Source: a virus. From it: a stretch of 38,761 nt of DNA. The notes below the pieces were generated by a model, which saw only the letters and a program-made list of their open reading frames with translations, made no database searches and was not told the origin of the DNA. A program made the translations under genes and the position numbers. Of the stretch, positions 1,514 through 9,283 are shown one piece after another. Where the stretch lies: the IMG/VR virus record IMGVR_UViG_3300048996_000020, positions 1-38,761 of that record; one strand, given 5' to 3'. Numbering within the stretch: the first letter of the stretch is position 1; the number at the start of each line of letters is the position of its first letter.

Positions 1514-1549
1514 GTAGGGGTCTCACTATAAGGCCTGTAAACTTTGCGA
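1514..1549 (-). promoter_or_regulatory. Repeated promoter-like element, copy 1
   Basis: Minus-strand core: CGCA, then TTTACAGGCC, then TTATAGTGAGACCCCTAC. It matches seven other copies nearly base for base and lies 20 nt before the start of the 51-aa gene. The TATAGT would be a -10 box, but no TTGACA-like box sits 16-18 nt upstream. Confidence 0.75.
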
Positions 1550-2429: not shown

Positions 2430-2562
2430 TGTTTTTGATCCTTCCTGTGAGTTTTTTTAGTGTGATGATCGAGGCGCCAGGAGGAGTTAAGGTAATCCGG
2501 TTCTCCGTTTTTAAAATTCCCTAGCCTGGCCTTACGGCGGATTCCGCCTCAATCGGATATGC
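2430..2562 (-). other. Non-coding leader between structured RNA and Cys-rich gene
   Basis: No ATG-led frame is present on the minus strand. It contains a GGCGG/CCGCC mini-hairpin near 2536-2548, an A/T-rich tract near 2510, and a run of seven T on the plus strand near 2452. It could be the 5' leader of the Cys-rich and NlpC/P60 genes or the tail of the structured RNA. Confidence 0.4.
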
Positions 2563-2699
2563 GATGACCGGGGCACATGTCTGATCCCTGCCCTTGGGAG
2601 GGCGGGCAGGTACGTCGGCTGTCGTTTAGTTCGTAAGCATCCGGAATATGGCCTCGGGTGAGACCCCTACGTGGCCACTTGCTTACGACCCCGGTCATC
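2563..2699 (-). ncRNA. Candidate structured RNA with anti-leader loop
   Basis: The outer stem is a perfect 11-bp pair, GATGACCGGGG (2563-2573) with CCCCGGTCATC (2689-2699). Inside are CCTGCCC/GGGCAGG (2587-2593 with 2604-2610) and a 9-bp stem TCGTAAGCA/TGCTTACGA (2631-2639 with 2680-2688), which ends in TGGCC/GGCCA and a 19-nt loop at 2654-2672. Read on the minus strand, that loop contains CGTAGGGGTCTCA, the exact complement of TGAGACCCCTACG, the shared 5' leader following the repeated promoter elements. The strand is chosen from the surrounding genes; no promoter of its own is evident. It starts 3 nt after the stop of the 48-aa membrane protein gene, so it could also be a structured 3' UTR. 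Confidence 0.5.
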
Positions 2700-2702
2700 A
2701 CG

Positions 2703-2849
2703 TTACAGATGTTGCAATGGGCTGTGGGCGATTACTTTGACCAACTTGTCGATCAGCCAAAGCGAACCGCCCACAGTTAGAACGAGAAGCACCCAGAGCT
2801 TAATGAGTTCGACGAACTTTTCGAACCCGTCTGGTTTGTTCTTCTCCAT
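2703..2849 (-). CDS. Small membrane protein, 48 aa
   Basis: A polar N-terminus (MEKNKPDGFEKF) precedes one hydrophobic segment (residues about 16-40) and a short tail. It starts 2 nt after the stop of the 175-aa gene and has no clear ribosome site of its own, so it probably depends on translational coupling. It ends 3 nt before the structured RNA. Function unknown. Confidence 0.6.
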   Translation of the reverse strand: MEKNKPDGFEKFVELIKLWVLLVLTVGGSLWLIDKLVKVIAHSPLQHL

Positions 2850-2851
2850 CG

Positions 2852-3379
2852 CTATGCCGCGTCAGCGGACTTGTGGGACCTGCGCTGGAATGCGACGAGA
2901 AGCTGCTCGGGCGAGTACTTGGTCTCGTCCTTGCCGAAGGCCTTGAAGAACTCCTCGTCGGTCATGCCGATCATGTCGTCCTTCGAGTACACCTTGCTCT
3001 GCTCCTCGGCGACCCTCTGCTGGATGTGCGCGGGGAGGATCGAGTTGAAGAACTCGGCTCCGGCGTCATCCATCTCGATCAGCTCCGCGAAGAGCTGCTT
3101 GTAGGCCCCTCCGTACTTGAACTGACGGATAACGGATTCGTCCTTGACGAGCAGGCTTCCCTCGCGCTTGCCGACGGACGCGAACAGCATTTCCTTCAGG
3201 ACGGAGATCCATCCCTTGCTGTCCTTGTTCTTCAGCATCTCACTCAGGTACTCTTCGAGGTTTTCGTGGTGAGCGAGGTCCATGTCAGCCGCGTCGGCCT
3301 CGCTGAGAGAGAAGTACCACTCCTCCTCGACGGGCTTACCGTCCAGATCCTCGAAACGTATGCTCTTCTTCACGGCCAT
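2852..3379 (-). CDS. Tail-assembly-chaperone-like protein, 175 aa
   Basis: The N-terminus (KKSIRFEDLDGKPVEEEW, YFSLSEADAADMDL) and the FASVGKREG...AELIEMDDAGAEFFN stretch resemble phage tail-assembly-chaperone-like proteins, which coat the tape measure during tail assembly. The C-terminus carries a second acidic/aromatic motif (MTDEEFFKAFG). It is soluble and acidic. Its place in the accessory arm, about 20 kb from the tail genes, is odd, and the tail module has its own chaperone candidate at 23817-24359. A GAAGGGA ribosome site precedes the ATG. The family call is from memory of similar sequences. Confidence 0.55.
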   Translation of the reverse strand: MAVKKSIRFEDLDGKPVEEEWYFSLSEADAADMDLAHHENLEEYLSEMLKNKDSKGWISVLKEMLFASVGKREGSLLVKDESVIRQFKYGGAYKQLFAELIEMDDAGAEFFNSILPAHIQQRVAEEQSKVYSKDDMIGMTDEEFFKAFGKDETKYSPEQLLVAFQRRSHKSADAA

Positions 3380-5923: not shown

Positions 5924-5937
5924 GACAAATCCTTTCG

Positions 5938-5973
5938 TAGTGGGTCTCATTATAAGGCCTGTAAAACTTGCGA
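5938..5973 (-). promoter_or_regulatory. Repeated promoter-like element, copy 2
   Basis: Core CGCAAGTTTTACAGGCC and TTATAATGAGACCC, followed by ACTACGAAAGGA. One extra base (A) interrupts the CCCCTACG leader. It drives the 83-aa gene. Confidence 0.78.
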
Positions 5974-6709: not shown

Positions 6710-6728
6710 GGTTCCCCCAGCGAAAGCG

Positions 6729-6750
6729 TAAACCCCATGTAGGGGTTCAG
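6729..6750 (-). terminator. Cassette stem-loop (weak terminator)
   Basis: AACCCC and GGGGTT pair around ATGTA. The flanks (GCGTAAACCCC and AGAGGCTCTTGAGATCA on the plus strand) recur at 7854 and 8564. No continuous U-tract follows, so it may be a partial terminator or an RNA 3'-end stabiliser. Confidence 0.55.
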
Positions 6751-6762
6751 AGGCTCTTGAGA

Positions 6763-6975
6763 TCAGTCTTCGGTGGTGGCTTCCAGCTTGGCGGCCTTCT
6801 TGGCCTCCCGCTTCTTCTTCATCTCCTCGAACTTGGTCATGGCCAGGCCGACCGCCACGAAGCCCGCCACAACGCCCGTCGAAATGACGGTGCTGAGGAC
6901 GAGCGACTTGGCGATCTCCTTGCCGAAGTTCAGTTCGGTGGACTCAGTGGTCTCGGGGGTCTCGTTGGTCTCCAT
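6763..6975 (-). CDS. Small membrane protein, 70 aa (cassette gene)
   Basis: Thr/Glu-rich head (METNETPETTESTEL), one membrane segment (residues about 24-46) and a long, highly charged helix (KFEEMKKKREAKKAAKLE). The architecture matches the 83-aa and 82-aa cassette proteins although the sequences differ. Promoter copy 3 lies directly upstream, with a TGGAGAA ribosome site. Function unknown. Confidence 0.75.
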   Translation of the reverse strand: METNETPETTESTELNFGKEIAKSLVLSTVISTGVVAGFVAVGLAMTKFEEMKKKREAKKAAKLEATTED

Positions 6976-6992: not shown

Positions 6993-7028
6993 GTAGGGGT
7001 CTCACTATAAGGCCTGTAAAACTTGCGA
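6993..7028 (-). promoter_or_regulatory. Repeated promoter-like element, copy 3
   Basis: Core CGCAAGTTTTACAGGCC and TTATAGTGAGACCCCTAC. It begins 4 nt after the stop of the 42-aa gene, so the upstream transcript and this unit abut. Confidence 0.78.
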
Positions 7029-7764: not shown

Positions 7765-7800
7765 GTAGGGGTCTCATAATAGGACCTGTAAACCGTGCGG
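7765..7800 (-). promoter_or_regulatory. Repeated promoter-like element, copy 4
   Basis: This is the most divergent copy: GGTTTACAGGTCC replaces the usual centre and TATTATGAGACCCCTAC follows. The leader TGAGACCCCTAC is intact. Confidence 0.7.
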
Positions 7801-7853
7801 GTCCGAACAGCAGATTGCACAAAGTACTGCCATTTTGACAAGAATCGAAAGCG

Positions 7854-7875
7854 TAAACCCCATGTAGGGGTTCAG
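7854..7875 (-). terminator. Cassette stem-loop (weak terminator)
   Basis: Same AACCCC-ATGTA-GGGGTT hairpin and flanks as at 6729, directly after the stop of the 89-aa gene. Confidence 0.55.
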
Positions 7876-7887
7876 AGGCTCTTGAGA

Positions 7888-8157
7888 TTACTGCTGAGAG
7901 GCGTTACCGACGTGACGCATGGAATAGGCCTGGCCGTCAATGTTGTATCGGATGTCGACGTTCCCGGTTTGCATGGCTTCGCGGTCGTCGGGAGTCAGCG
8001 GGAAGAAGTCGTCCGACTTAAGCCCACGAGAAATTTCGGTGGCTTGGTGGACGACATACAACGCGTATGAAATCGCGACGAGGCCGACGGAAGTGGTTAC
8101 AACGGGGAGGTTTTTCTTGATCCGGCTCTTGACGGCTTTGATCTTATCCTTGTTCAT
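7888..8157 (-). CDS. Small membrane protein, 89 aa (cassette gene)
   Basis: A lysine-rich start (MNKDKIKAVKSRIKKN) leads to one membrane segment (residues about 17-36) and a 50-residue soluble domain (SDDFFPLTPDDREAMQ ... DIRYNIDGQAYSMR). The N-terminal half resembles the next cassette protein (VKAKIKRHPN...), so the two may be distant paralogues. An AAAGGAAACC ribosome site and promoter copy 5 lie upstream. Function unknown. Confidence 0.72.
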   Translation of the reverse strand: MNKDKIKAVKSRIKKNLPVVTTSVGLVAISYALYVVHQATEISRGLKSDDFFPLTPDDREAMQTGNVDIRYNIDGQAYSMRHVGNASQQ

Positions 8158-8170
8158 TTGGTTTCCTTTC

Positions 8171-8207
8171 GTAGAGGGTCTCATTATAAGGCCTGTAAAA
8201 TCTGCGA
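8171..8207 (-). promoter_or_regulatory. Repeated promoter-like element, copy 5
   Basis: Core CGCAGATTTTACAGGCC and TTATAATGAGACCC, then TCTACGAAAGGA. One extra T sits inside the CCCCTACG leader. Confidence 0.78.
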
Positions 8208-8221
8208 TACTGCGAAAAACA

Positions 8222-8242
8222 TAAGCCCCGTGTAGGGGCTCA
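8222..8242 (-). terminator. Cassette stem-loop (weak terminator)
   Basis: AGCCCC and GGGGCT pair: both arms differ from the 6729 copy yet pairing is kept, which is a compensatory change and supports a real RNA hairpin. Confidence 0.6.
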
Positions 8243-8248
8243 GAGGTT

Positions 8249-8509
8249 TTAGAGGTCTTCGGCGGAAAGCGGTTCGGGTTGAATGCAGAGGTATCCTCCG
8301 TCAAGCCAAGCAGCATGCTTCTCTCCGTCTGCGAAGTCATCCAGGATCTCGATGAGTACTCGACAGCCTCTCTTTGCTTTGCTCAGTTCCTTTCCTGAGT
8401 AATAGCCTAGGGCGGCAGCGGTAATCAACATCGATCCCATAGCTGCGACGCAGTTGGGGTGGCGCTTGATCTTGGCCTTGACATTGGAAACTTTCTTCTT
8501 CAGGTCCAT
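8249..8509 (-). CDS. Small membrane protein, 86 aa (cassette gene)
   Basis: Start MDLKKKVSNVKAKIKRHP, then one membrane segment (residues about 21-38, VAAMGSMLITAAALGYY) and a soluble tail with a cysteine pair and acidic end (PEPLSAEDL). N-terminal basic helix and placement match the 89-aa neighbour. AAAGGAACC lies before the ATG. Function unknown. Confidence 0.72.
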   Translation of the reverse strand: MDLKKKVSNVKAKIKRHPNCVAAMGSMLITAAALGYYSGKELSKAKRGCRVLIEILDDFADGEKHAAWLDGGYLCIQPEPLSAEDL

Positions 8510-8522
8510 AATGGTTCCTTTC

Positions 8523-8559
8523 GTAGGGGGTCTCATAATAAGGCCTGTAAAACTTGCGA
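8523..8559 (-). promoter_or_regulatory. Repeated promoter-like element, copy 6
   Basis: Core CGCAAGTTTTACAGGCC and TTATTATGAGACCCCC, then TACGAAAGGA. It starts 4 nt after the stem-loop of the preceding cassette, so terminator and promoter are back to back. Confidence 0.78.
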
Positions 8560-8563
8560 AAGC

Positions 8564-8586
8564 ATAAACCCCGTGTAGGGGTTTAG
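8564..8586 (-). terminator. Cassette stem-loop (weak terminator)
   Basis: A 7-bp AAACCCC/GGGGTTT stem around GTGTA follows the stop of the 64-aa gene. Confidence 0.58.
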
Positions 8587-8597
8587 AGGCTTTGAGA

Positions 8598-8792
8598 TCA
8601 GTTGTCGATGGTACCAAGGGTGGCGGTTCGTCCGTCAGCGTACTTGACTTCACCCGCGATGTTCTCGTTCCACATGTCAATTCCAACCGCGAAGAAGTCC
8701 TTCATGAGCTTCTCTTTGGTTTCCTTGTCATCGGTCTGGGCCATCTGCGCGGCGATGTCGTTGGTCTTCTGAACGAACTCGGCGTTGTCCAT
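8598..8792 (-). CDS. Small soluble protein, 64 aa (cassette gene)
   Basis: Unlike most cassette genes it has no membrane segment. The first 45 residues form a charged helix (NDIAAQMAQTDDKETKEKL), followed by a short beta-like end (GEVKYADGRTATLGTIDN). Promoter copy 7 is upstream; the ribosome site is weak (TTGGAAC). Function unknown. Confidence 0.7.
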   Translation of the reverse strand: MDNAEFVQKTNDIAAQMAQTDDKETKEKLMKDFFAVGIDMWNENIAGEVKYADGRTATLGTIDN

Positions 8793-8807: not shown

Positions 8808-8843
8808 GTAGGGGTCTCATTATAAGGCCTGTAAAACGTGCGA
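8808..8843 (-). promoter_or_regulatory. Repeated promoter-like element, copy 7
   Basis: Core CGCACGTTTTACAGGCC and TTATAATGAGACCCCTAC. It lies 12 nt from the strong hairpin at 8855-8907. Confidence 0.78.
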
Positions 8844-9234: not shown

Positions 9235-9247
9235 AGCAGATCCTTTC

Positions 9248-9283
9248 GTAGGGGTCTCACTATAGGGCTTGTAAAATGTGCGA
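9248..9283 (-). promoter_or_regulatory. Repeated promoter-like element, copy 8
   Basis: CGCACATTTTACAAGCC and CTATAGTGAGACCCCTAC, then GAAAGGA. It is the rightmost copy, and its leader matches the structured-RNA loop over the full 13 nt. No copy is seen in the structural-gene region. Confidence 0.75.

Follow-up and report, generated by a model that had tools for sequence, protein, structure and literature searches.

Why should a phage place the same short leader at the start of many separate mRNAs, and what does a complementary copy of it do in the loop of a structured element of the same genome? The window analysed here (the whole stretch of 38,761 nucleotides) is a virus record from IMG/VR whose relatives are Streptomyces phages (genera Rimavirus and Bingvirus), and the question arises on its minus strand, where eight near-identical promoters are each followed by the leader UGAGACCCCUAC(G) or a form of it with one inserted base, and where the region 2563-2699 would expose the complement of this leader. 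Our analysis suggests that this element is a trans-acting antisense RNA, probably the 3′ part of a chaperone transcript, whose loop pairs with the cassette leaders and most likely represses translation, a reading to which we assign a probability of roughly 0.72. That pairing in trans with the leaders is the function of the element appears highly probable from the comparisons given below.

A preliminary description of the locus had taken the loop for the complement of a leader shared by eight mRNAs, and this was confirmed to the base, as were the match length of each copy, the ribosome site directly following four of the leaders, and the 11-bp closing stem and 19-nt loop, both on the sequence and in the fold (Table 1). 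The stretch CGTAGGGGTCTCA of the loop (2671-2659) covers leader positions +1 to +12/13 in the form found in this window and only adjoins the Shine-Dalgarno sequence (SD). Indeed, the 12-mer TGAGACCCCTAC occurs six times in the window (five leaders, and the loop on the other strand), compared to 0.01 times in shuffles. The promoters belong to a class with fixed spacing and the consensus CTCGCAAGTTTTACAGGGCCTATAA, for which the position weight matrix gave 6 matches in 2.2 Mb of shuffled sequence at a threshold of 12.5. Note that 16S rRNA was also considered as a putative pairing partner of ACGACAGCC. In addition, near-identical repeats (CCCC...GGGG with flanks) are found after several cassette genes (6721-6763, 7846-7888, 8214-8256 and 8557-8599) and look like a shared terminator cassette.

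Table 1. Features of the window discussed in the text; on the minus strand, each leader starts at the higher coordinate of its range.
Feature	Coordinates	Strand	Evidence or remark
Leader copy 1, UGAGACCCCUAC	1514..1525	-	12-nt match
Structured RNA element, whole	2562..2699	-	fold z -4.6; model R1 match 80.9 bits, E 5.6e-17
P1 closing stem, 3′ side	2563..2573	-	fold
P2 stem, 3′ side, UGCUUACGA	2631..2639	-	covariation in relatives, as for the 5′ side
P3 stem, 3′ side, GGCCAU	2648..2653	-	fold
19-nt apical loop, ACGUAGGGGUCUCACCCGA	2654..2672	-	fold
Antisense core in loop, CGUAGGGGUCUCA	2659..2671	-	complement of leaders; own-leader match beats swapped
P3 stem, 5′ side, GUGGCC	2673..2678	-	fold; P3 covaries in relatives
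P2 stem, 5′ side, UCGUAAGCA	2680..2688	-	pairs with 2631-2639
P1 closing stem, 5′ side	2689..2699	-	fold; pairs with 2563-2573
Small ORF (48 aa, membrane-like) between chaperone gene and element	2703..2849	-	sequence reading
PF23803 Phage_TAC_17 ('tail assembly chaperone') gene	2852..3379	-	Pfam E 2e-51
Leader copy 2, UGAGACCCACUACG	5936..5949	-	one inserted base; GAAAGGA next
Leader copy 3	6993..7004	-	12-nt match
Leader copy 4	7765..7776	-	12-nt match
Leader copy 5, UGAGACCCUCUACG	8170..8183	-	one inserted base; GAAAGGA next
Leader copy 6, UGAGACCCCCUACG	8522..8535	-	one inserted base; GAAAGGA next
Leader copy 7	8808..8819	-	12-nt match
Leader copy 8	9247..9259	-	13-nt match; GAAAGGA next
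Fixed-spacing promoter (example), TCGCACATTTTACAAGCCCTATAG	9260..9283	-	position weight matrix score 37.8

For the minus strand of 2563-2699, the predicted fold has -62.5 kcal/mol, compared to -44.7 +/- 3.9 in dinucleotide shuffles (0 of 200 as stable), and is a closed junction formed by P1 (11 bp), P2 (9 bp), P3 (6 bp, with the 19-nt loop) and a variable further hairpin. Self-folding of the loop core is possible (GGGU/ACCC), and its predicted unpaired probability is only 0.49, compared to 0.40 for the whole element. The window contains no Rfam 15 match above the gathering threshold, five relatives searched at a relaxed E-value gave chance-level matches only, and no tRNA or tmRNA was found. 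A coding reading (a 50-aa ORF across 2549-2701) was rejected because indels in the relatives break the frame and nearly all of them have no CDS annotated there.

BLASTN with the element alone returned 36 Streptomyces phage records, in which the corresponding place is almost always intergenic and unannotated. Alignment brought out three stretches that do not vary, namely CCGGAUGC, AACGACAGCCG and ACAUGYGCCC, and, in the loop, the core GGGGUCUC. Pattern scans of IMG/VR with these three motifs, the loop being left out (except in one scan that used it), provided dozens of further contigs, and a covariance model (R1) found more members, including a tandem pair (L127:7269-7552) whose first copy is without the GGGGUCUC target loop. 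Altogether, about 70 homologues occur in Streptomyces, Rhodococcus and Gordonia phages and in soil virus contigs, the named hosts of the carriers including Streptomyces, Rhodococcus (ReqiPoco6, ReqiPepy6) and Gordonia (Secretariat). From 61 extracted elements, 49 were aligned with MAFFT, and the inner GGGG/CCCC of P1 is kept in nearly all relatives.

When a hand-written structure was imposed on this plain MAFFT alignment, the stems showed 144 double-changed cells, where shuffles gave 38 +/- 6, and scored 0.473 for covariation compared to 0.162, both sides having changed in 11 of the 16 pairs (6 of the 8 scored in P2). Pairing cells reached 90.8% compared to 74.4% in shuffles, and the covariation signal was destroyed when the partner was slid by one to three columns. 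Strong compensatory change in the stems of related phages, which the preliminary description had proposed as a check, was thus found among the 49 relatives, and such helix covariation above chance is what a structured RNA family should display. Since the stems covary and nearly all relatives have no CDS annotated over the element, these comparisons, which demonstrate the fold and its conservation, indicate that the element acts as RNA and not as DNA or protein.

Both partners, i.e., element and leaders, were found in every named phage examined (SscP1EGY, IceWarrior, Kardashian, ReqiPoco6, Scap1, Scarif, Secretariat and ClubPenguin). The last four were chosen by protein-coding DNA similarity to other loci, with neither element nor leader used, and all of them have the element (73-84 bits), located after a PF23803-type gene, as well as leaders. 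Reduced elements were identified in phage Miek (L011 / L016), where only P1, the hairpin and the GTAGGGGTCTCACCCG loop are kept, and in L032, where P1 and the hairpin remain with the same loop, which suggests that the loop is the essential part. No host or prophage copy was found in 296 Streptomyces and 396 Actinomycetota genomes by a search that recovered 8 of 9 virus records as a control, and the reading as a host or prophage RNA was rejected on this basis. Pattern scanning of genome contigs was set aside, since its scattered matches fell in unrelated bacteria and were about as many as chance would give. No description of the element was found in the open-access literature searched, and the 2024 Scarif paper has a main text in which 'promoter' never appears and RNA is mentioned with other meanings only (PMC11536984).

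The preliminary description had made its reading depend on stems and match being preserved together in relatives, and both recur together in about 70 phages or contigs. As whole-loop duplex energies discriminate poorly for single records, contiguous complementarity was used as the measure. Over 64 records, loops matched their own leaders across 8.62 contiguous nt and swapped leaders across 7.90 (0 of 20,000 permutations as good), and the 14 records in which GAGACCCC is not the main leader gave 6.22 and 5.71 (p ~0.013); both tests ignore kinship, so that their p values overstate independence. Natural compensatory pairs illustrate this co-change. In L044, the leaders read UGAGAACCC (3 of 4) and the loop GGGUUCUCA (rank 1 of 64), so that GAGAACCC in the leaders faces GGGUUCUC in the loop; in L058, UGAGACCCA faces UGGGUCUCA (rank 1); in L256, GAACCC (3 of 3 leaders) faces GGGUUC (rank 4); and in L258 and L259, GAGA is lost from the leaders and UCUC from the loops. 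Pairing is poor in several members: no complementary loop is found in L056 and L083, and the own-leader match has a low rank in L251 and L111. Comparison of these lineages demonstrates complementarity and its compensatory upkeep, and indicates that loop and leader have changed together where the leader differs; given this joint change in evolution, a single RNA probably acts as a simultaneous switch for an entire set of viral genes. An origin of the loop from an inverted copy of the promoter found no support and was rejected, because the GGCC preceding the match belongs to a stem whose sequence is different in most relatives.

The promoter class also provides information about which transcripts are addressed. 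Using a matrix that excluded the leader (1-11 promoters per locus), 311 promoters of the class were examined, of which 269 carry a CCC-type target leader, followed by an SD and an ORF in 265 cases. Among the 42 promoters without target leader, only 16 precede an SD and an ORF, mostly with near-matches such as UGAGACCUCUAC, and most of the remaining ones head a tRNA (ReqiPoco6) or short hairpin RNAs with T-runs, the others nothing recognisable. These proportions indicate that the target marks mRNAs and not the promoter: within the class, the leader travels with translation, and the promoter does not need it. Promoters without the target leader that head short non-coding RNAs were observed in L024, L053, L058, L088, L046, L254 and L266 (UGAGAGGAGAGGYAAACCACUAGGGUGG in L024 and L053; hairpin RNAs GAAGAG...CUCUUC-T-run in L254), and these short RNAs are possible further phage sRNAs.

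Almost all promoters (226 of 227) lie on the strand of the element, so that pairing must be in trans, and the putative targets are located up to several kb away. The element thus has the position of a trans-acting sRNA, away from its predicted targets and on the same strand, as well as the conserved complementarity to the translation initiation region expected of one (8-13 nt, over the SD in some lineages). Indeed, in Rhodococcus phages and their relatives the loop also covers the SD (UCCUUU): ReqiPoco6, L041, L042, L045 and L046 have UCCUUU(C)GUAGGGGUCUC, or a sequence close to it, in the loop, which is thus antisense to GAGACCCCUAC(G)AAAGGA, with predicted duplexes reaching -37.5 kcal/mol. 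The extension of the antisense stretch over the SD in other lineages, together with the mRNA specificity, strengthens the translational reading, and net translational repression is the most likely effect.

We propose that the RNA is made as part of the chaperone-gene transcript, which would be processed so that its 3′ part is released as a trans-acting antisense RNA, and that the junction of stems would display the loop complementary to the 5′ leader common to the small cassette mRNAs. If these leaders begin at TGAG, as we infer, the loop would pair at the extreme 5′ end of each mRNA, beside or over the SD, and the pairing would most likely block the access of ribosomes and may target the mRNAs for cleavage. 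One RNA would then turn the whole cassette set down whenever the chaperone operon is expressed. The trans control of the cassette set by a single RNA, already advanced in the preliminary description, gains support from the conserved fold, from the ~70 relatives and from the loop-leader co-change.

The same pairing could also help the mRNAs, by protecting their 5′ ends or opening the leader, in which case the RNA would be an activator or stabiliser of the cassette set. Pairing at an extreme 5′ end can protect an mRNA, and the loop of this window only adjoins the SD; however, over their first 12 nt the leaders are largely open to begin with (0.52-0.86 unpaired), leaving little structure for pairing to release, and the SD itself is covered in the Rhodococcus and related forms, which makes such a positive role unlikely. 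Still less probable is a reversed direction, in which the abundant leaders would act as sponges controlling the RNA and its real job would lie elsewhere, e.g., with a phage protein binding the conserved junction. The junction stretches CCGGAUGC, ACGACAGCCG and ACAUGYGCCC, which the search patterns partly selected for, are conserved beyond what pairing needs, but coverage of the SD would be unnecessary for a sponge.

The gene setting of the putative antisense RNA bears on its origin. A homologous upstream protein was found in 58 of the 60 loci with a candidate ORF, and the PF23803 chaperone gene precedes the element in nearly all relatives, even though the window's protein shows only 20-56% identity to those of other loci. 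The gap between chaperone stop and element is mostly 3-14 nt, and about 80-200 nt in the window and several relatives. In 28 of the 53 loci, the 150 nt 3′ of the element contain the start of a cassette promoter, so that the mRNA that follows does not have the element as its 5′ UTR; the short gap and these promoters make the RNA resemble a product of the 3′ UTR of the chaperone operon. In the window, the nearest cassette promoter is separated from the element by a terminator at 5642-5609, and a sigma-70-like promoter was not found in the interval. It should be noticed that the PF23803 gene, beside the element, lies ~10 kb from the tape measure gene, an unusual place for a tail assembly chaperone gene.

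A cis-acting role, as a 3′ UTR structure (stability, termination or frameshift stimulation) or as a 5′ UTR switch of the next gene, with the loop match being secondary, would agree with the usual location just past the chaperone stop codon. We consider it very improbable, since the gap is wide in the window and several relatives (in the window with another small gene inside), the frequent promoter after the element argues against a switch, and the loop-leader co-change would be left unexplained. A frameshift stimulator of the chaperone gene was rejected given the gap and the inserted gene that separate the two in the window, and a 5′ UTR riboswitch given the new promoter. Least credible of all is a leader serving as DNA operator of a phage regulator (as stoperators do), with the element as decoy or relic copy, since, although the leader keeps a fixed distance from the promoter core in every copy, it is missing from most same-class promoters of RNA genes, which does not fit an operator, the stems covary as RNA, the match can run over the SD, and the copy occurs on one strand only and always inside the same loop.

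As to the transcription of the cassettes, IceWarrior, Scarif and Secretariat encode a large protein belonging to PHROG 4291 or annotated 'RNA-dependent RNA polymerase'; the window record is shorter than its relatives. In IceWarrior, gp85 (L015:46809-49592), annotated as an HTH protein, gives a full-length match to PHROG 4291 'RNA-dependent RNA polymerase' and contains an ADFDGD motif and, at its C-terminus, a sigma-like HTH. This motif, which we take to be the signature of two-barrel RNA polymerases such as YonO, suggests that the cassette-class promoters may belong to a phage polymerase, and our guess is that the phage's own two-barrel RNA polymerase reads them. CATATT is a polar genome motif, almost perfectly strand-specific: in seven phages (the window on its minus strand, L014-L017, L276 and L277), the coding strand has 14, 47, 23, 23, 54, 58 and 5 copies, compared to 0, 0, 1, 1, 0, 0 and 0 on the other strand, many of them inside genes, in all three frames, and some in promoters or the RNA element. 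In a wider reading, for which we see even odds, the phage would possess an RNA regulon in which a 5′ address tag is placed on mRNAs only and one structured RNA reads the tag and switches translation, tag and reader co-evolving; the tagged transcripts would come from phage-specific promoters and would perhaps be made by the phage two-barrel RNA polymerase.

Altogether, a deeply conserved actinobacterial phage RNA family faces the leader found on nearly all cassette mRNAs of a phage. Trans-acting control of this kind would explain why the same leader precedes genes without assigned function in dozens of actinophages, as a common control of timing, and would offer for Streptomyces an orthogonal translation switch in which one RNA serves many genes; natural compensatory pairs exist as ready tests of the mechanism.

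Among known systems, c4 of phages P1 and P7 is a phage-encoded structured antisense RNA in which loop stretches pair near a ribosome site and which acts in trans on phage genes (PMC12197685). Our element resembles c4 as a structured phage RNA with an antisense loop stretch near the ribosome site, but the leader that it faces recurs on many separate mRNAs, all under promoters of their own; given these many targets with their own promoters and the lack of an Rfam match, identity with c4 RNA was rejected. The c4 RNA controls a single operon, the ant operon, with which it shares a transcript. Other small phage RNAs regulate transcripts by pairing, namely the CI RNA of satellite phage P4, the sar RNA of P22 and the OOP RNA of lambda, but their targets are few, they are mostly encoded in cis or act on a leader inside a single operon, and none of them is known to be a 3′ UTR element that addresses a leader shared across a regulon. 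Bacterial trans-acting sRNAs that block SD regions, including those derived from 3′ UTRs, combine a loop seed, multiple mRNA targets and SD-proximal pairing. Their seeds are usually short and imperfect and their targets unrelated, whereas the putative targets of the element share one leader, matched over 8-13 nt (up to ~17 nt with the SD) and kept by co-change. The start-associated sequences and stoperators of mycobacteriophages (the latter in cluster A) are likewise short conserved repeats before many small genes, thought to meet the ribosome or a repressor; in contrast, the leaders described here have a putative partner RNA encoded in the same genome and are missing from most promoters of RNA genes. 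For phage antisense RNAs, usually a single target is known. The kind is thus already known, and what is new is the family, the proposed address tag of a whole regulon and the series of natural compensatory pairs.
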